From Cyanobium sp. FACHB-13342 (GTDB taxonomy: Bacteria; Cyanobacteriota; Cyanobacteriia; PCC-6307; Cyanobiaceae): DNA of 64,000 nt. How positions within the stretch are numbered: the stretch's first letter is position 1; each line of letters begins with the position of its first letter. Location of the stretch: positions 124,001 to 188,000 of the forward strand of contig NZ_JACJRT010000014.1 in assembly GCF_014697415.1 (NCBI RefSeq), read 5' to 3'. A program made the translations under genes and the position numbers. The notes beneath the pieces were generated by a model. The model did no database searches. It was not told the DNA's origin and was given only the letters and a program-made list of their open reading frames with translations. This document shows positions 22,590 through 42,590 of the stretch, piece by piece.

Positions 22590-25376
22590 GTGGGCCCAAT
22601 CAATTGGTTCAACCGCTGGCCTGAACAGCAGGCTCGAGTCGTGCGTTGGACCCTACTGCTCGCCTGGCTGGGCCTGATCGCCCTGTTGCTGAAGCCAGAA
22701 CTGGGCCCCGCCTACGGCTCCACCGTCTGCCGAGAGTCGACCATCTGCCGTCCCGGCATCGGCAACGACCTCTTCTGGAATATCGGCCTGCCGCTGGTGA
22801 TCCTGGTGGTGTACCTCAGCCATGAACTCTGGCGGCGCATCTGCCCGCTGTCATTTGTCTCCCAGCTGTTCAGGGCCCTGGGCTGGCAGCGCACGGTGCT
22901 GAACCGCGCCGGCAAACCCCAGGTGGCGGCCATCTCGGAGTCGTCCTGGCTGGCGCGCCACCACATCCAGCTGCAGTGGGGTCTGCTGATCGCCGGCCTG
23001 AGCCTGCGGCTACTGATCGCCAACAGCAACGGGCTGATCCTGGCCCTGCTGTTTGCGGCAGCCCTGCTGGCCGCCCTGATCAGCGGCTGGGCCTACGGCG
23101 GCAAGACCTTCTGCCAATACCTCTGTCCGTTCGCTCCGGCCCAGAAGATCCTCAGCGGACCGCGCAGCCTGCTCAGCTCCCAGGCCCACCTCGGCGGCGG
23201 CAGCAAGACGACCCAGTCGATGTGCCGCACGGTGGGAGCCCAGGGCCAGGAGATCAGCACCTGCGTGGCCTGCGCCAAACCCTGCTTCGACATCGACGCC
23301 GAGCGCACCTACTGGCAGAGCCTGAGCGGCCAGCGGGGCATGGCCTGGGCCTGGTACTCCTATCCAGGCCTAATCCTGGCGTTCTTTCTGCTGATCCAGA
23401 GCTACGCCCCGGCCGGGGCCAGCGACCATGGAATCGATTACCTGACGAGCAATCTGTTCACCTACGACGGCCGCCTGGCGGCCATGGCCTGGCAATCCCT
23501 GCTGCCGGCGGGCTGGCCCCAACTGCCGCGGATCCTGGCCATCCCAGCCCTGCTCAGCGCTGGGGGCGTGGCATCGGAACGGCTGTTCCACCAGATCGAG
23601 CGGCTGCAACGGCACCGGCTCAGGGCCGCCAGCCCCGAACTGGCGAAGGAGCGGGCGATCCACCGCACCCGACTGCTGGCCACCTTCACAGCGATCAACA
23701 CCTACTTCTTCTTCAAGGGCAACCTGCTCGACAGCGGCGGAACGCTGTTGTCGCTCGAGCTGCAACTGCTGGTCGTGGCGATCAGCTCCGTTTGGCTCTA
23801 TCGCAGCTGGGATCGCGACCGCGGCCTCTACGAACGGGAAAACACCAGCACCAGCCTGCGCAAACGCCTGGCCAAGCTCGGGGCGGAACTGCACCCGCTG
23901 CTGGCCGGGCGCCAACTGGAGGATCTCAACCCGGGTGAGGTGTTCGTGCTGGCCAATGCCCTGCCGGTGCAGGAAACCTCCCAACGCCAGAGCATCTATC
24001 TCGATGTGCTTCGGGATCTGATCAGCCAGGGGCGCCTGGATCGCACCGCTTCCCTCAAGACCCTGAGCGACCTGCGCACCAGCCTGAGGCTCACTGATGC
24101 CGATCACCAGAGCGCCCTGGAGATCCTTACCAGCGAAGACGCCCGGCTCACCAGCCTGAGCCCCGAGGCTCTGGCCGGCCTAAGCCTCTGCCGCAACGCT
24201 GCCGCCCAGGAGATCGAAGATCTGCTGCTGCTGAGCGGATCCACGGTGCTGCACCTAGATGGCCTGGATGCCTACGGCCGCGGGCGGCTCGAGCGCATCC
24301 AGATCGAGAGTGGTCTCGATGACGACAGCTGGGCCCAGCTGCTGAACGACTTCGGCCCCGGATCCCAATTCGGCGAACGGCAGCTCAGCCAGCGATTGCA
24401 GCTCGTGAACCAGGCCATGGCCCGCAGGGAGAGCCTGGCCGAATTGAACCGGCGGTTGCCCCTGGCCGCGCCGCTGGTGCTCAGCCTCGACCGCCAGATC
24501 GCCCGTTTCCTGCCCGACCTGGTAGCCCTGATCCGCAGCGGTCTTACCGCCCCAGGGGAGCAACGGCCCGATGAAGCCTGCCTGGCCCTGCTGCGCAGCC
24601 TCTCCCCCAACGTGATGGCCTGCCTCGCCAGTGAGGATGGCACCACCACGGCGATCACCACCTGGCTCGATGGGATCGAAACGAAATTACCCAGCATCTC
24701 CCCCCTGCCGGAAGCGGCGGCGGTGCTTGAGGGGCTCTGGCTGGATACCGACCCCTACGTGGCGCTCTGGGCCCTGATGGTGCTGCGCCAGGTTGACAGC
24801 AGGCAGGCCGAACGAATGCTGCAAACGCCCCGCACCGGGCTGCCGTCCAGCAGGGCGCTGAAGGGCTTTCTGGAGGGTGAACAGCTGGCGAGCATCGAGA
24901 TCCTTGCCGCGATCGCAGACCAGCCCCTGATCCAGCGCCTCGAACCCGGCGCCCTAGTGGACCTAGATCGCCTCTGCAACCTGCGGCAGTGGCGCCAAGG
25001 AGATCCGATCGAGCGCCCTGCCGGTGGGGTACTAATTCTTCTCGCTGGCAGCTGCGAGCAACGCCAGAGCCTGGTGCCGGGGTCAGCGCCAAAAACAATC
25101 GCCGAACATGGCAGCGGCACCATTTTGGGGCTGGCCGATTATTTCGGTGAGCACAAGAGCGGCGTGCAGGCCAAGCTTGTGGCCACTGCCCAGGGCTGCA
25201 GCGCCCTGGTGTTCAGCCGCACCGGTTTCCGTGAACTCCTCGATGTGTCGCCGATCTTCGAGCAGGCGCTCATCCGCGAATTGGCCTCGCAGTGTGAAAC
25301 CCTGCAGCGCTCTCTCCAGGCCAAACGGCAGCAACAGCAGCATCAGCGCATGCGGCGCATGAGCACAGAAAACTGA
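22590..25376 (+). CDS. Membrane Fe-S protein (NapH/NosR-like) with C-terminal CNMP-like domain
   Basis: 928 residues from GTG 22590. The N-terminal half has about six membrane helices. Its cysteine motifs resemble NapH/NosR/RdxA-type 4Fe-4S membrane proteins: RRICPLSF, CQYLCPFAPAQKIL, and a C-x2-C-x3-C set in STCVACAKPCFDID. Residues about 410-790 are a helical, Leu-rich region without recognised motifs. Residues about 795-905 look like a cyclic-nucleotide-binding fold (ILLAGSCEQRQ, ILGLADYFGEH, FSRTGFRELLDVSPIFEQALIREL), but the phosphate-binding Glu/Arg pair is not preserved. A Gln-rich coil ends the protein. It probably moves electrons in the membrane; partner and donor are unknown. Confidence 0.8.
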   Translation: MGPINWFNRWPEQQARVVRWTLLLAWLGLIALLLKPELGPAYGSTVCRESTICRPGIGNDLFWNIGLPLVILVVYLSHELWRRICPLSFVSQLFRALGWQRTVLNRAGKPQVAAISESSWLARHHIQLQWGLLIAGLSLRLLIANSNGLILALLFAAALLAALISGWAYGGKTFCQYLCPFAPAQKILSGPRSLLSSQAHLGGGSKTTQSMCRTVGAQGQEISTCVACAKPCFDIDAERTYWQSLSGQRGMAWAWYSYPGLILAFFLLIQSYAPAGASDHGIDYLTSNLFTYDGRLAAMAWQSLLPAGWPQLPRILAIPALLSAGGVASERLFHQIERLQRHRLRAASPELAKERAIHRTRLLATFTAINTYFFFKGNLLDSGGTLLSLELQLLVVAISSVWLYRSWDRDRGLYERENTSTSLRKRLAKLGAELHPLLAGRQLEDLNPGEVFVLANALPVQETSQRQSIYLDVLRDLISQGRLDRTASLKTLSDLRTSLRLTDADHQSALEILTSEDARLTSLSPEALAGLSLCRNAAAQEIEDLLLLSGSTVLHLDGLDAYGRGRLERIQIESGLDDDSWAQLLNDFGPGSQFGERQLSQRLQLVNQAMARRESLAELNRRLPLAAPLVLSLDRQIARFLPDLVALIRSGLTAPGEQRPDEACLALLRSLSPNVMACLASEDGTTTAITTWLDGIETKLPSISPLPEAAAVLEGLWLDTDPYVALWALMVLRQVDSRQAERMLQTPRTGLPSSRALKGFLEGEQLASIEILAAIADQPLIQRLEPGALVDLDRLCNLRQWRQGDPIERPAGGVLILLAGSCEQRQSLVPGSAPKTIAEHGSGTILGLADYFGEHKSGVQAKLVATAQGCSALVFSRTGFRELLDVSPIFEQALIRELASQCETLQRSLQAKRQQQQHQRMRRMSTEN

Positions 25377-25426: not shown

Positions 25427-27199
25427 ATGACAGCGAGCGCAACGGCCAGCGGCACCCCAGCCTCCGCGCCACCCCGGCTCACCCTGCAGTGCGAGGCGAT
25501 CGGGCCCGACACCACCACGATCCGCTCGCTCGACTGGGACCGCAGCCGCTTCGACATCGAATTCGGCCTGCGCAACGGCACCACGTACAACAGCTTCTTG
25601 GTGCGGGGCGAACGCACCGCCCTGATCGACACCAGCCACCTCAAATTTGAAAGCACCTGGCTGCCGCTGCTGCAGGAGCAGATCGATCCCCAAGCGATCG
25701 ACTACTTGATCGTCAGCCACACCGAACCGGACCACTCCGGCCTGATCGGCCATCTGCTCGACCTCAACCCCGAGATCGAGATCGTGGGCTCCAAGGTGGC
25801 GATCCAGTTCCTGGAAAATCAGGTGCACCGCCCCTTCAACAGCCGGGCGGTGAAGAGCGGTGAAGAGCTCGACCTAGGCACCAACCCCACCAGTGGCGTG
25901 CAGCACCGCTTCGAGTTTCTCAGCGCACCCAACCTGCACTGGCCGGACACGATCTTCTCCTTCGACCACGGCACCGGCATCCTTTACACCTGCGACGCCT
26001 TCGGCCTGCACTACTGCTCCGAGGAGCTGTTCGACGCCGATCCGGGTGCCATCGCCCCCGATTTCCGCTTCTACTACGACTGCCTGATGGGGCCGAACGC
26101 CCGCAGCGTGCTGCAGGCGTTGAAGCGCATGGATGCCCTGCCGCCCATCACCACCGTAGCCGTGGGCCATGGTCCGCTGCTCCGCCATCACCTGGGGCTC
26201 TGGCTCGGCGACTATCGCGACTGGAGCAGCGACCGCAGCGGTGGCGAGGCCTACGCCGCCGTTTGCTATGTGAGCCAATACGGCTTCTGCGACCGGCTCA
26301 GCCAGGCCATCGCCCGCGGCATCGGCAAGGCCGGCGCGCAGGTGCAGCTGGTGGATCTGCGGGCCACCGACGCCCAGGAGCTCTCCGCCCTGATCGGCGA
26401 GGCCAGCGCCGTGGTGGTGCCCACCTGGCCGGCCAGCCCCGATGCGGAGCTGCAGGCTTCGATCGGCACCCTGCTGGCGGCCCTCAAGCCCAAGCAGTGG
26501 GTGGGCAGCTACGACGCCTTCGGCGGCGACGACGAGCCAATCGACACCGTGGCCGGCCAGCTGCGCAGCCTCGGCCAGAAGAGCGCCTTTGAACCGTTGC
26601 GGATTCGCCAGGTGCCCCTCGGCCCCGATTACCAGCGCTGCGAGGAGGCCGGCACCGACCTGGGCCAGCTGCTCACCAAGGCGAAGACGATCGCCGCCAT
26701 GAAGGCCCTCGACGGCGACCTCGACAAGGCCCTGGGCCGCCTGTCCGGCGGGCTCTATGTGGTGACAGCCCGCCAGGACACGCCCGAGGGCAGCCGCAGC
26801 TCGGCCATGGTGGCCAGCTGGGTGAGCCAGGCCAGTTTCGATCCCCCCGGCCTCACCGTGGCCGTGGCGAAGGACCGGGCCATCGAAGCCCTGATGCAGG
26901 TGGGGGATCGCTTCGTGCTCAACATCCTGCGGGAGGACAACCACCAGGACCTGCTGCGCCACTTCCTCAAGCGCTTCCCCCCCGGCGCCGACCGCTTTGC
27001 CGGGGTGGCCACCCTGGAGGGCGCCGCCGCCGGCGGCCCGGTGCTGGGGGATGCCCTGGCCTTTCTCGGCTGCCGCGTGGTGCAGCGACTGGAGGGGCCC
27101 GACCACTGGATCATCTACGCCGAAGTGGAGCAGGGCAACGTGGCCGACACCGAGGCCAGCACCGCCGTGCACCACCGCAAAGTGGGGAACCACTACTGA
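25427..27199 (+). CDS. flv3: Flavodiiron protein, Flv3-like (canonical iron ligands)
   Basis: 590 residues with the three domains of cyanobacterial flavodiiron proteins. They are a metallo-beta-lactamase domain (about 35-265), a flavodoxin domain (about 275-415) and a C-terminal flavin-reductase domain (about 430-590). The diiron ligands H98, E100, D102 and H103 are present in SHTEPDHSG, and later D and H ligands are visible in YTCDAFGLHYC and VGHGPLL. Flv1/Flv3 heterodimers reduce O2 to water on the acceptor side of photosystem I. Its stop shares a base with the next gene's start. Confidence 0.93.
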   Translation: MTASATASGTPASAPPRLTLQCEAIGPDTTTIRSLDWDRSRFDIEFGLRNGTTYNSFLVRGERTALIDTSHLKFESTWLPLLQEQIDPQAIDYLIVSHTEPDHSGLIGHLLDLNPEIEIVGSKVAIQFLENQVHRPFNSRAVKSGEELDLGTNPTSGVQHRFEFLSAPNLHWPDTIFSFDHGTGILYTCDAFGLHYCSEELFDADPGAIAPDFRFYYDCLMGPNARSVLQALKRMDALPPITTVAVGHGPLLRHHLGLWLGDYRDWSSDRSGGEAYAAVCYVSQYGFCDRLSQAIARGIGKAGAQVQLVDLRATDAQELSALIGEASAVVVPTWPASPDAELQASIGTLLAALKPKQWVGSYDAFGGDDEPIDTVAGQLRSLGQKSAFEPLRIRQVPLGPDYQRCEEAGTDLGQLLTKAKTIAAMKALDGDLDKALGRLSGGLYVVTARQDTPEGSRSSAMVASWVSQASFDPPGLTVAVAKDRAIEALMQVGDRFVLNILREDNHQDLLRHFLKRFPPGADRFAGVATLEGAAAGGPVLGDALAFLGCRVVQRLEGPDHWIIYAEVEQGNVADTEASTAVHHRKVGNHY

Positions 27200-29001
27200 T
27201 GACCAGCCCCAGCGACCAGGCCAGCGCGCGGCGCGTGATTCAGCTGCCCCTGGACCCGGGCCTGATCTGCCTCAAGGGCCTCAGCCCCACCCGGCTGCGC
27301 TTTGAGGTGGAGTACGGCCTGGAGCGGGGCACCACGGCCAACAGCTTCCTCTTCCCGGCCATCCCGCTGCTCATCCATCCCCCCGGCACCTCCTTTGCCG
27401 AACCCTTCCTGGCCCAGCTGGCCAGCTTGGTGCCCGCCGATGCAGCCCTGAAGGTGGTGGTGGGTGATGTGAACCCCAACCGGGTGGGTCTGCTGCGCCA
27501 GCTGGCGAGCCACTGGCCCCACACCCTGCTGGTGTGCTCCAACGCCGGCGCCAAGGTGCTGGAGGAGCTGTGGGACCAGCAGAAACCGGGCCAACCGGGC
27601 GACCCGCCCCCGGCAGCGGCGCCTCCCCTGCCGCCGATCGATGTGGTGAAACAGGAGGTCAGCCGCCGCCTCAGCGATGGCCACGTCATGCGGCTAATCC
27701 CCACACCCACCCCACGCTGGCCCGCCGGCCTGATGGCCTTCGAGGAGAGCACCGGCCTGCTGATGAGCGGCAAATTCTTCGCCGCCCACCTGTGCAGCGA
27801 GAGCTTTGCCGAAACCAACCGCAGCAGCACCGAAGAAGACCGCCGCTACTTCTACGACTGCCTCATGGCGCCCATGGCCCGGCAGGTGGAGTCGGTGGTG
27901 GAGCGGCTAGAAGAGCTCGACATCCGCACCATCGCCCCCGGCCATGGACCGGCGATCAGCGAGAGCTGGCGCAGCCTGCTCAACGACTACCACCGCTGGG
28001 GGGCGAGCCAGGAGCGGGCGCGGCTCTCGGTGGCCCTACTGTTTGCCAGCGCCTATGGCAACACCGCCGCCATCGCCGACGCCCTGGCCCAGGGGGTGGG
28101 CCGCACCGGCGTGCGGGTCGAGAGCATCAACTGTGAATTCACGCCGCCCGAGCAGCTGCTGGCGGCGATCCGCAGTTGCGACGCGATCCTGATCGGCTCC
28201 CCCACCCTCGGCGGCCATGCCCCCACGCCGATCGTCTCGGCCCTGGGCACGGTGCTGGCCGAAGGCGACCGCAGCAAGCCGGTGGGGGTGTTCGGCAGCT
28301 TTGGCTGGAGCGGCGAAGCCCTCGACCTGCTGGAAAGCAAGCTGCGCGACGGCGGCTTCCGCTTTGGCTTCGAGCCGATCAAGGTGAAATTCAGCCCCGA
28401 TGCGGCCACCCTCAAGGCCATCGAGGAAACCGGCACCGGCCTGGGGCGCCAGCTGCTGGCGGAGCAGCGCAAGGCCCAACGGCGCAGCGCCAGCGGCGGC
28501 CTCAGCGAGAGCCGCAGCAACCCCGCCGTCCAGGCCCTGGGCCGGGTGGTGGGCTCCCTCTGCGTGCTCACCACCTGCAAAGGGGAAGGGGCCAGCCGCC
28601 TGAGCGGCGCCATGGTGGCCAGCTGGGTGAGCCAGGCCAGCTTCTCCCCGCCGGGGTTCACCGTGGCCGTGGCCAAGGACCGGGCCGTGGAAGCCCTGCT
28701 GCACACCGGCGACCGCTTCGCCCTCAATGTGCTGGCGGCGGGACGGGAGACCGGACCGATGAAGCAATTCCTGCAGCCCTTTACGCCGGGGGCTGACCGC
28801 TTCGCTGGCCTGGAGCTGGACTCCACCCCAGGCGGCCAACCGATCCTGCCGGAGGGCCTCGCCTGGCTGGAGGCCACGGTGCAGCAGCGGATGGAATGCG
28901 GCGACCACTGGTTGGTCTATGCCCAGGTGAGCCATGGCGGGGTGCTGGATGGCAACGGCACCACGGCCGTGCACCAGCGGCGCAGCGGCGCCAACTACTG
29001 A
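27199..29001 (+). CDS. flv1: Flavodiiron protein, Flv1-like (substituted iron ligands)
   Basis: 600 residues, the same three-domain layout as the preceding gene: beta-lactamase-like (about 25-270), flavodoxin (SVALLFASAYGNTAAIADAL, about 280-420) and flavin reductase (about 445-600). The first iron-binding motif is replaced by D90-x-N92-x-N94-R95, and a lysine stands where the bridging Asp region would be (MSGKFFAAH). This is the known pattern for Flv1, which works as the partner of Flv3. The start overlaps the Flv3 stop by one base, so both subunits are made from one message. Confidence 0.93.
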   Translation: MTSPSDQASARRVIQLPLDPGLICLKGLSPTRLRFEVEYGLERGTTANSFLFPAIPLLIHPPGTSFAEPFLAQLASLVPADAALKVVVGDVNPNRVGLLRQLASHWPHTLLVCSNAGAKVLEELWDQQKPGQPGDPPPAAAPPLPPIDVVKQEVSRRLSDGHVMRLIPTPTPRWPAGLMAFEESTGLLMSGKFFAAHLCSESFAETNRSSTEEDRRYFYDCLMAPMARQVESVVERLEELDIRTIAPGHGPAISESWRSLLNDYHRWGASQERARLSVALLFASAYGNTAAIADALAQGVGRTGVRVESINCEFTPPEQLLAAIRSCDAILIGSPTLGGHAPTPIVSALGTVLAEGDRSKPVGVFGSFGWSGEALDLLESKLRDGGFRFGFEPIKVKFSPDAATLKAIEETGTGLGRQLLAEQRKAQRRSASGGLSESRSNPAVQALGRVVGSLCVLTTCKGEGASRLSGAMVASWVSQASFSPPGFTVAVAKDRAVEALLHTGDRFALNVLAAGRETGPMKQFLQPFTPGADRFAGLELDSTPGGQPILPEGLAWLEATVQQRMECGDHWLVYAQVSHGGVLDGNGTTAVHQRRSGANY

Positions 29002-29070
29002 GGGCCGCCGACTGAGGTCCCCCAGGCGAGACAGGGCCCTCGGCCTGGCGCCCGGGCCCCACCTTGACCC

Positions 29071-29103
29071 GCTTATCCATAGTCGATCCGACTATGGATA
29101 AGC
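29071..29103. promoter_or_regulatory. Perfect 15-bp-arm palindrome upstream of rubrerythrin
   Basis: Arms 29071-29085 and 29089-29103 are exact inverse complements around ATC. A TTGACC (29064-29069) lies just upstream and could be a -35 element, so a bound dimer would cover the -10 region. It lies 36 bp before ATG 29139. There is no T-run, and the region is not GC-rich, so a terminator is unlikely. The best guess is an operator for a redox, iron or peroxide regulator; no match to a named box was recognised. Confidence 0.7.
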
Positions 29104-29138
29104 TAGGCTCTGTCCAAAGGGAATGCTTCCCAGCCCCA

Positions 29139-29873
29139 ATGGACACCAGCCAACCCATGGACCTCTCCAAGCCCCATACCCAGGCCAACCTCGAGGCCGC
29201 CTTCGGCGGCGAAAGCATGGCCAACCGCAAATACCTGTTTTTTGCCGAGGTGGCGAAGCAGGTGGGCAACACGGAGCTGGCCAAACTGTTTCGCGACACG
29301 GCCGCCCAGGAAACGGAACACGCCTTTGCCCACTTCCGCCTGCTCCATCCCGAGCTGGTGATTGACGATCCGGCCACCCTCTCCGAGGCCCAGAAGCAGG
29401 CCCTGCTGGGCCGCTGCCTCGAGCTGGCGATCGAGGGGGAAACCTACGAGTACACAACGATGTACCCGGAATTCGCCGCCCAGGCCCGCGCCGACCGCGA
29501 CGCCGGCGCCGAAGCTGAATTCCAGGAGCAAATCGACGAATCAAAGGACCATGCCGGCATCTTCCGCACCGCCGCGAAGAACTTCGGCCTGCTGACCCCG
29601 ATCGAGCAGCACCACGCCGAGCGCTACGGCATCGCCCTGGAGGCCCTACACGGCAAGGGCGTGGCCGGCGAGGCGGCCCAGCCGGTGGCCGGCAAGTGGA
29701 TCTGCAAGCTGTGCTCGATGATCTACGACCCCGCGGCGGGCGACCCGGAGTCCGGCATCGCCCCGGGCACCCCCTTTGAAGCCATCCCCGACGACTGGCG
29801 CTGCCCCATCTGCGGCGCCCGCAAGGCCAGCTTCGTGCCCTACCGCGAGCCTGAACTCTTGGCCGCCGCATAG
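29139..29873 (+). CDS. Rubrerythrin
   Basis: 244 residues from ATG 29139; ATG 29157 is equally reasonable by family length, while ATG 29094 lies inside the upstream palindrome. A ferritin-like diiron domain (about 15-165) has [15 protein letters not shown] (E25), [12 protein letters not shown] (E58, H61), [15 protein letters not shown] and [10 protein letters not shown] (E134, H138). A C-terminal rubredoxin domain holds [10 protein letters not shown] and CPICGARK (C189, C192, C222, C225). Rubrerythrins reduce hydrogen peroxide to water, with electrons passing through the rubredoxin site. Its place after flv3-flv1 supports a role in oxygen and peroxide handling. Confidence 0.94.
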
Positions 29874-40253: not shown

Positions 40254-41762
40254 ATGGCAGACAATCAACGAGTAGAGGATGAAAAGATCAATAAATTTCT
40301 ATTGAAACTGTGGGCTGGCATCACTGTTTACCTGATGGGAAATGCAATCGCCCAGACTTTGGTTTTAAAAACAGCAAGCTTTGATGACGCAGAGCAACTT
40401 TTACTGACGCAGAATTGGTCACTTGGCTATGGTGACCAGCCGCCACTATATACTTACCTAGCAAAGCTGATATTCATCATTACAGGCCCTTCACTCTTGG
40501 GCCTCTTTATTTTAAAAGCCATCATTATTAGCCTCCTGGCTAGCGCCTTTTTGCTGATCGGCAAAGAACTTCGATTCCGAAAAGACCAGCACATTGCGTC
40601 ACTCTGTGGCCTCACCCTAATCCCCCAATTCACCTGGTCCTCACAAACAAGCTTAACGCACTCTGTTCTTGCAACAACAATAGCCTCATATACACTTTGG
40701 CTATTAATTAAACTGAGCAAAAACCCCAGCAGACTTGACTATTGGGCATGGCTTGGAGTGTTCGTTGCAGGCGGAATGCTTAGCAAATACAATTTCGCAC
40801 TCTTCCTTGCTGGCTTGACCACTGGGAGCCTTCTAGTCCCAAGAATCAGAAGCCTATTCACGCAGCGAGGCATGCTGGTCGCCTTGGGCAGCAGTCTGAT
40901 TTTGTTGATGCCACACATGGCTTGGATTGCATCTCATAGCGATCTCGCCTTGAGTGGAATCAGAGATGCGAAAACAACCAATCTTCCAGCTGTAGCTTGG
41001 CCATTTATAGGCTTTGGCGTTGCCTTTGCTTTTCTCAGTCCATTTTGGATTGCAGCTCTTGCCCTGATCTGGCCGGAAAGGCTGAAATTGCTAATCGCGG
41101 AACCATCCAAGGAGCCAGCCAAAGCCTTGATTCAACGGTTACCGCTTGTGATGGTGGGCTCTATTCTTGTCATCATCACAGTTGTCACAAGAGATGTGAT
41201 TCCAAGGAGTCATTGGTTTCAATGTCTGTTGTTTTTTACTCCTATCAGTGCAGCAAGTCTGCTGCCATCAATCCCGAAAACTAGAGCCAAATGGCTCACA
41301 GCAACCGCACTCGCAGGAGCAGCAGCTACGACAGCGATCATGGTTGGCGGCATAGCCTTGGCGGGCATTACTGGAAAAAGCCGTGTTCGCAATCAACCCA
41401 CATCAGAGCTCATCTCAAGCCTAAGGAAAAGCTACCAAGCCCCAGATTTAATTGTCACCGACAGTATTTTTCTGGCCGGAAATGCTCGCCTTGCGTTTCC
41501 TGAAACAACCGTCCTAGATCTTCCCAAGGAGGAAGGGCAAGCACAAGAGAATATCGCAAATCACAAAACCCTCAAAGGGAAAAACCAACGAATTCTAATT
41601 GTTGCCGCAACTGAAGAAGATCTCAGAGAAATAGAGAACCGAGTAATTCGCCTTGATCCAAGCCTCCATCAATTATCTCATGATTCCAAAACAAGTCAAT
41701 ATTACTGGGCGCCCAGCAAAGAATTGACTTTATTTTTTGCCTGGCTAAGCAATTCCTCTTAG
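40254..41762 (+). CDS. ArnT/PMT-like glycosyltransferase (GT39-type membrane protein)
   Basis: 502 residues. About ten membrane helices are visible, and the first loop carries SFDDAEQLLLTQNW and SLGYGDQPPLYTYLA, the acidic-plus-Pro pattern of lipid-linked-sugar transferases (PMT_2/ArnT clan). A soluble domain of about 120 residues closes the protein. Such enzymes move a sugar from a polyprenyl-phosphate donor onto lipid or protein at the outer face of the membrane. Base composition is markedly AT-richer than dnaB and mnmG on either side, and codon use differs (many ATA, TTA, AAA), which suggests recent acquisition. Confidence 0.82.
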   Translation: MADNQRVEDEKINKFLLKLWAGITVYLMGNAIAQTLVLKTASFDDAEQLLLTQNWSLGYGDQPPLYTYLAKLIFIITGPSLLGLFILKAIIISLLASAFLLIGKELRFRKDQHIASLCGLTLIPQFTWSSQTSLTHSVLATTIASYTLWLLIKLSKNPSRLDYWAWLGVFVAGGMLSKYNFALFLAGLTTGSLLVPRIRSLFTQRGMLVALGSSLILLMPHMAWIASHSDLALSGIRDAKTTNLPAVAWPFIGFGVAFAFLSPFWIAALALIWPERLKLLIAEPSKEPAKALIQRLPLVMVGSILVIITVVTRDVIPRSHWFQCLLFFTPISAASLLPSIPKTRAKWLTATALAGAAATTAIMVGGIALAGITGKSRVRNQPTSELISSLRKSYQAPDLIVTDSIFLAGNARLAFPETTVLDLPKEEGQAQENIANHKTLKGKNQRILIVAATEEDLREIENRVIRLDPSLHQLSHDSKTSQYYWAPSKELTLFFAWLSNSS

Positions 41763-41804
41763 CATCCTGGCCAACTCAATACCTCTATGCGCTAGCCATA
41801 TCCC

Positions 41805-42590
41805 ATGAGCAATTATATCTCAAATCCGGTTTTAACCATTACGACCGTACAAACCGGACACCGCTACCCGGATCCCTGGGTGAGCCGGCTGGCCGCCATG
41901 GTCGGACGCCACCTAGCCGAACCCCATCGCTTCATCGTGTTCACCGACCGGCCCGAACCCGGGCGGTTCGGGCCGCCGGCCAGTGATCACCAGCAGCTGG
42001 AGGTGCGGGATCTGCAGGGCGGTGGCCTGCAGGGGTATTTCGGCAAGCTGCGCCTGTTCGACCAAGCCCTGACCGGCCGCGATCCCTTTCTGTTTCTGGA
42101 CACCACCTTGGTGATCCGCGCCAGCCTGGACCCCCTGGTGCAGCGAGGCCGCTCCAGCATCGCCAGTGTGATCGGCGTCCGCGACTGGAACTACCCGATC
42201 CTCAATTCCTCTGTGCTCTGGTGCCGGCCCGATGCCTACACCCAGGCCGTATGGACCAGCTGGCAAGACGGTCGCTATGGGGACCAGAGCTTTCCGGGAG
42301 ACCAGAACTTCATTTTTGAGGTCTTTCGCCAACAAGCTCCCGCTGCCCTCGCCTACTGGCCCAAGGGATGGGTGAGCTCCTACAAAGCCCTGCGCAAACT
42401 CGCGGCCCGCGATCCACTCGCCGCCCAGCAGCAGCTTGAGGCCAGCTGCATCCTCAAATTCCACGGCCGCCCGAAGCCCGAGGAAGTGCTCCATCCCTGG
42501 CGCCACCCCCGCCGCACGGTGCTGCGGCACCCGCTCCAGCCCAGGCTCTGGGGCTATCTGGCCGAGGAAATCCGCACGCACTGGCACTGA
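41805..42590 (+). CDS. Putative glycosyltransferase-like protein
   Basis: 261 residues from ATG 41805. The N-terminal start ITTVQTGHRYPDPWVSRL, then HRFIVFTDRP and GYFGKLRLFDQALTGRDPFLFLDTTLVI, resemble GT-A nucleotide-sugar transferases of small polysaccharide loci, and GDQNFI occurs late as in GT8-like enzymes. The expected DxD is only LDTT, so metal binding is doubtful. The first dozen codons are AT-rich and the rest is GC-rich, as if the gene sat at the edge of an insertion. No membrane helix. Confidence 0.65.
   Translation: MSNYISNPVLTITTVQTGHRYPDPWVSRLAAMVGRHLAEPHRFIVFTDRPEPGRFGPPASDHQQLEVRDLQGGGLQGYFGKLRLFDQALTGRDPFLFLDTTLVIRASLDPLVQRGRSSIASVIGVRDWNYPILNSSVLWCRPDAYTQAVWTSWQDGRYGDQSFPGDQNFIFEVFRQQAPAALAYWPKGWVSSYKALRKLAARDPLAAQQQLEASCILKFHGRPKPEEVLHPWRHPRRTVLRHPLQPRLWGYLAEEIRTHWH

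Follow-up and report, generated by a model that had tools for sequence, protein, structure and literature searches.

The window analysed here, a stretch of 64,000 nucleotides from Cyanobium sp. FACHB-13342, carries on its forward strand a rubrerythrin-rubredoxin gene (29139 to 29873, with its start ATG at 29139 or 29157; PF02915 and PF00301), which is preceded by two flavodiiron-type genes, one of them at 27199 to 29001 on the same strand with Flavin_Reduct, Flavodoxin and ODP domains. Further upstream, before these two genes, 22590 to 25376 encodes a membrane-like protein of 928 residues, whose matches to 4Fe-4S and cyclic-nucleotide-binding domains are below the cut-off. Before the rubrerythrin gene lies a perfect inverted repeat at 29071 to 29103, to which no strand is assigned. 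As claimed in the original prediction, its arms of 15 bp each, GCTTATCCATAGTCG (29071-29085) and CGACTATGGATAAGC (29089-29103), are complementary at 15 of 15 positions around the 3-bp loop ATC. Among perfect inverted repeats with loops of up to 10, none elsewhere in the window has arms as long, and first-order Markov simulation of the window, run 40 times, gave maximum arms of 9 to 13, so that none of the 40 reached 15. A search of the whole 2.37-Mb genome (99.4% complete) for the half-site, which had been proposed as a check, found exact occurrences confined to 29071-29103, while at up to three mismatches there were 12 matches, including the palindrome's own two, compared with 18 for a reversed control pattern. 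Since half-site matches are not commoner than the control, the palindrome is not a dispersed repeat. Although a long perfect inverted repeat is what a copy of a mobile or dispersed element could show, this origin is extremely improbable here, as the palindrome is unique in the genome and has aligned, position-conserved counterparts in relatives. A transcript of the repeat would form a highly stable fold (-25.7 kcal/mol, z -6.95), as would be expected of an RNA hairpin or of a terminator ending the flavodiiron operon; nevertheless, no terminator-like site was found in 28900-29300, no Rfam match was found in the window and the arms are imperfect in most relatives (of the best 80 of 333), which makes an RNA element highly improbable.

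For the comparison with other rubrerythrin (rbr) promoters, the best 80 of 333 relatives found were used, 78 of them with a usable upstream (L064 and L100, whose match lies at a contig edge, were left out of the promoter counts), giving 79 upstreams together with the window. In many of these, a 23-bp operator, TAACTCATA-N5-TCCGACTTA, stands shortly before a TANNNT -10 element, and a 29-bp matrix and an alignment with L039-L043 place its counterpart in the window at 29073 to 29095 on the forward strand, with the dyad centre at about 29084. The operator is mostly imperfect in the relatives, and among the 79 rbr upstreams (best 80 of 333) the perfect repeat is peculiar to the window genome; thus, the conservation expected in related rubrerythrin promoters was observed for the operator but not for the perfect repeat. 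In the close relative L039 (97% protein identity), for instance, CAACTCATAGTCGATCCGACTACGGACAAGCTAGGCT is found where the window has TTATCCATAGTCGATCCGACTATGGATAAGCTAGGCT. The 129 distinct 29-mers from which the 29-bp matrix was built did not include the window; they were gathered by pattern on both strands, and chance matches were not removed from them. The best match of the matrix in the window is 29070-29098 (14.3 bits, the next one having 9.5), the only window position above 14. Of the 78 rbr upstreams of relatives (best 80 of 333), 62 score at least 14 bits, many of them having contributed to the matrix, 56 score at least 20 and 16 remain lower than 14, so the 14.3 bits of the window site are at the low end of the rbr set.

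Alignment and matrix together indicate that the perfect palindrome belongs to this conserved operator as a divergent form, with its dyad centre shifted by 3 bp. Its perfect symmetry seems to be a permitted variant of an operator that drifts, in which a left TTATCC meets a right GGATAA, and not a separate element. Relative to L041 and L043 the left arm has a cluster of three changes, and relative to L118 the right arm has one; all of these would raise the symmetry, as a template switch might do. Yet L073 and L075 have the left half TTATCCATA as well and no right arm to match it, so that ordinary drift would suffice, a template switch being a possible origin. In the alignment, the window shares the downstream GGATAAGC with L040 and L118, in keeping with the reverse-strand outer heptamer described below. 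Two records with close relatives of the rubrerythrin gene (L064 and L072) bear the titles Gammaproteobacteria and Bifidobacterium breve and are probably mislabelled assemblies.

The probable -10 element of the rubrerythrin gene is TAGGCT at 29104 to 29109 on the forward strand, as indicated by the spacing of TANNNT in rbr loci and by the alignment, in which the -10 elements of rbr promoters read TAGGCT, TACGCT or TAAACT. When 60 rbr loci were scanned on the forward strand only, TANNNT started at +26 relative to the operator in 28, at +27 in 16 and at +28 in seven; the spacing of the window, +31, was shared by 4 of the 60, and 13 loci have a TANNNT at +21 as well, within the end of the operator. 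A TTGACC next to the palindrome had been taken as fitting steric repression. This hexamer is present at 29064-29069, but it does not serve as a basis for that mechanism: the site abuts the -10 element, and TTGACC cannot be the -35 of the rubrerythrin gene because the likely -10 TAGGCT is 34 bp further on. Besides, TTGACC was not seen in the six aligned relatives, and a search of 28900-29300 gave no sigma-70 pair.

The palindrome had initially been described as matching no box that could be named, a statement that had to be revised, since by sequence it matches the cyanobacterial FurC/PerR box. The 19-bp stretch CATAGTCGATCCGACTATG (29078 to 29096, without assigned strand, dyad centre 29087) shares its layout and the inner AGTC/GACT half-sites with FurC boxes described in Anabaena sp. 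PCC 7120, for example CGAACTCATAACGACTACG (ntrC) and CATAGTCATTTCAACTATG (zupT; PMC10406281), and its inner 7-1-7 part, TAGTCGA-T-CCGACTA, occupies 29080-29094. A FurC matrix was derived from the 47 boxes in Table 1 of the Anabaena study, which are predictions; FurC is reported there to have bound 22 of 28 promoters tested (PMC10406281). With this matrix, the two strands of the palindrome rank second and third of about 128,000 window positions, and when the same 150-bp upstream was shuffled 2000 times, 4 shuffles attained the 7.58 bits of the site, as did 2 of 426 pieces of 150 bp taken from the window; shuffles of other rbr upstreams go up to 9.85 bits, above the 7.58 of the window. Among the 79 rbr upstreams (best 80 of 333), 65 exceeded the 95th percentile of shuffles, taken with one shuffle each, and the medians were 11.45 for the upstreams vs -6.64 for the shuffles. 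The top match of the FurC matrix in the window, at 41771, lies in 41769-41797 (8.1 bits, and 6.9 with the picocyanobacterial matrix), in a 42-bp gap before an ORF at 41805, and it is possible that it represents either a further site or chance. The second-best match of the picocyanobacterial matrix, at 40927, is inside the ORF 40254-41762 and is probably due to chance; this ORF, hydrophobic and transferase-like, gives by eye the impression of being rich in A+T, in contrast to its G+C-rich genome.

Two extra outer heptamers accompany the inner box, TATCCAT at 29074 to 29080 on the forward strand, 6 bp from the inner heptamer and in the same place as a conserved AACTCAT, and ATGGATA (reverse complement TATCCAT) at 29094 to 29100 on the reverse strand, and the heptamers of the window operator thus succeed one another every 6 bp. 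The picocyanobacterial box differs from that of Anabaena in having one G+C-richer half, TCCGACTTA, and an extra conserved heptamer 6 bp upstream. The PerR box of Bacillus subtilis is TTATAAT-N-ATTATAA; the picocyanobacterial box has the same 7-1-7 layout and shares T1, T4, A6 and T7 in TAGTCAT, while the other letters of its half-site are different. The overlapping Fur boxes of Baichoo and Helmann, from 2002, are reportedly offset by 6 bp. The heptamers repeated at 6-bp steps to either side of the window dyad resemble that arrangement, with the difference that the heptamer is (A/T)A(C/G)TCAT-like and not TGATAAT. The work on overlapping Fur boxes is cited in PMC3293774.

The original prediction of an operator before a peroxide-handling gene is supported by the relatives, in which the putative operator is conserved at rbr and recurs at other antioxidant genes. 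At up to two mismatches, the operator pattern gave 89 matches, distributed over 79 of the 201 family genomes, vs 15 for the reversed control (totals counted by hand from the table); a few matches inside genes or in A+T-rich genomes look like chance. Sites recur before leuA and before the gene of a thioredoxin reductase of about 460 residues, an ntrC-like NADPH-thioredoxin reductase, and in some species they are located between a peroxiredoxin gene (prx) and a divergent gene or before a sulfiredoxin gene (srx) divergent from psbQ. These names were read from the translations, with no database, the ntrC-like gene being recognised by length and sequence. The window genome has a leuA site of 36.8 bits at G000:C16:10420-10442 (L137/L299) and an ntrC-like site of 26.9 bits at G000:C7 (L313), and searches for particular types of prx and srx found neither gene in it. 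Sites at srx are present in G061, G045 and G100, and none was found before the srx-like matches of G133, G178, G049 and G200. The orientation of the operator relative to the gene varies between targets and is reversed at prx and srx, as fits an element acting as DNA and not the RNA hairpin considered above.

The position of the operator relative to the -10 element also depends on the target, being directly 3' of TANNNT at leuA and ntrC and 5' of it at rbr. In 35 leuA loci (33 genomes), TANNNT starts 11, 10 and 9 bp before the operator in 18, 16 and 1, respectively, and in all 19 ntrC loci counted (16 genomes; L317 and L178 left out) it starts 6 bp before. FurC boxes of Anabaena likewise occur either 5' or 3' of the -10, and prxA, srxA, ntrC and rbrA are among the FurC targets given in that study (PMC10406281). 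The targets of the two systems therefore overlap, as the operator of the family genomes is present at genes of the known PerR-type target kinds ntrC, prx, srx and rbr, in contrast to leuA, which is a putative picocyanobacterial target.

In the search for a regulator, the Fur-family proteins of 22 genomes were found to form three groups, namely Fur, Zur and a third, PerR-type one, which in the window genome is encoded at G000:C17:105211-105558. According to the alignment, the PerR-type group seems to be without most of the structural-zinc cysteines, unlike PerR of B. subtilis. It has two histidines spaced 53 (counted by hand), like the sensing histidines H45/H98 of FurC, as described in a review (PMC13421787). 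The PerR-type protein reaches 56 bits with the NCBIfam PerR equivalog NF047406, far below the cut-off of 200, and is therefore named PerR-type and not regarded as a curated PerR member. The PerR-type paralogue was found in 15 of the 22 genomes, including 13 of the 13 operator-bearing ones that were put in, and also G005 and G009, where the leuA and ntrC sites are present and where no rubrerythrin match was found, merely the rubredoxin part. Seven genomes of 1.7-2.0 Mb lack it; they had been picked as near-complete, small and without operator pattern match, and appear to be small-genome Prochlorococcus. Fur-family genes were looked at in 9 of the 122 genomes without such a match. Two named Prochlorococcus (loci L090 and L091) have both regulator and operator.

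With the 29-bp matrix, a leuA site was present in 7 of 7 genomes with the PerR-type gene (28-41 bits) vs 0 of 7 without it (at most 7.4), and an ntrC-like site in 7 of 7 (22-35 bits) vs 0 of 7 (at most -2.6), while the leuA and ntrC genes themselves are retained in all seven genomes without the regulator gene. The sites outside the training of the matrix (leuA and ntrC of G005 and G009, ntrC of G000 and G049) scored 22-32 bits. When the Anabaena FurC matrix was used alone, the promoters of leuA and ntrC could not be told apart by whether their genome has the PerR-type gene, perhaps because the PerR-less genomes are A+T-rich. At rbr, site and regulator are not strictly tied, since 12 of 12 genomes chosen for an rbr without recognisable site (loci L114, L116, L095, L102, L109, L088, L070, L076, L106, L063, L065 and L069) have the PerR-type gene (65-90% identity). 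Conversely, G224 (L099) has an rbr site but no close PerR match (best 27% identity, E 2.3e-5), in a record of merely 1.5 Mb that may be incomplete. In L110 (G222), the rbr site TAATCCGTATCCGTTACGGGTATGGATTA is diverged and the PerR-type protein is merely 58% identical, a possible co-divergence of regulator and box. The close relative G007 (L010, L025; L291, L292) has two rubrerythrin copies and two PerR-type genes, in an assembly rated 3% contaminated. No clear site was found in the upstreams of 16 PerR-type genes, where the best operator score was 10.9 bits, unlike in Anabaena, where the furC promoter is one of six training sites (PMC10406281).

An operator of another regulator, namely Rrf2, SufR, RexT, ChlR, Fur or Zur, was also considered, all of these being redox- or metal-linked and Fur and Zur paralogues being present in every one of the 22 genomes tested. 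However, no match was seen by eye to the boxes of SufR (CAAC-N6-GTTG), ChlR (TTMCC-N3/4-GGWAA), RexT (ATTCG-N15-CGAAT) or Zur (NTNANAATGATNATCATTNTNAN), and the Fur and Zur paralogues persist in the seven genomes without operator at leuA and ntrC; such an operator is thus very unlikely. An Rrf2-type protein, one of the earlier candidates, was discarded as the common regulator, since none over the cut-off was found in the operator-bearing genomes G178, G200 and G049; G200 has one match of 20 bits below the cut-off. The OxyR-type motif is ATAG-N7-CTAT, and its spacing of N7 differs from the N9 of the window palindrome. The best PDB match of the Zur group is 7NE9 (E 5.7e-48), the Zur (SynZur) of Synechococcus WH8102 (PMC9337993). 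Although SynZur belongs to the Fur family and a Zur paralogue is found in the same genomes, its box is another one, and the paralogue, which forms a group of its own, is also kept by genomes in which the operator is missing.

PerR, on the other hand, had been among the candidates from the start, and the FurC matrix match, the PerR-type paralogue and the co-occurrence at leuA and ntrC point to it. What the sequences show comprises the box and its conservation, the set of genes that share it, the gene of the regulator and the way in which these occur or are missing together in the genomes compared; on this basis, the palindrome is very likely the operator of a PerR-type (FurC-like) regulator of the Fur family. 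For a PerR-type operator we infer binding, a metal, peroxide sensing and repression. A dimer of the PerR-type protein would recognise the 7-1-7 core, and the flanking heptamers 6 bp away could add overlapping dimers. The metal-loaded protein, sitting beside the -10 and over the -35 region, would block RNA polymerase at the rubrerythrin promoter; hydrogen peroxide would inactivate it, and on oxidation it would leave the DNA, so that rubrerythrin, the ntrC-like gene and leuA may be derepressed together.

Repression at rubrerythrin, rather than activation, is likely. The opposite reading is a variant that differs in sign only, in which the same PerR/FurC operator activates rubrerythrin from upstream of the -10 and represses leuA and ntrC. 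The rbr boxes are indeed 5' of the -10, with neither a sigma-70 pair in the window promoter nor a good -35, and at leuA and ntrC the box would cover the start site. Operators over the -35 to -10 region usually result in repression. The window box lies over this region and not further upstream, and a peroxidase gene that is repressed until peroxide is present fits the rest of the gene set, which makes activation unlikely. The Anabaena authors lean to activation for boxes upstream of the -10, those of rbrA among them, and report that ntrC bound FurC in gel shifts and was the sole tested gene unchanged in a FurC overexpresser (PMC10406281).

As a kind of element, the PerR/FurC-type operator is already known. 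As far as we searched, what is new is the form that the box takes in picocyanobacteria, together with leuA as a putative target: in those parts of the open-licence literature that were accessible, we found no picocyanobacterial PerR regulon, box form or extended heptamer array, and no link between PerR and leuA. It seems reasonably likely that PerR also controls leuA in picocyanobacteria and that streamlined, PerR-less lineages lost the leuA and ntrC operators and kept the genes. The peroxide response of a large and ecologically important group would thereby gain a defined box, a set of genes and a candidate for the regulator, and the loss of this response in small-genome lineages would become testable. 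If leuA, the entry to leucine synthesis, is truly under PerR, the supply of branched-chain amino acids would be tied to peroxide stress.
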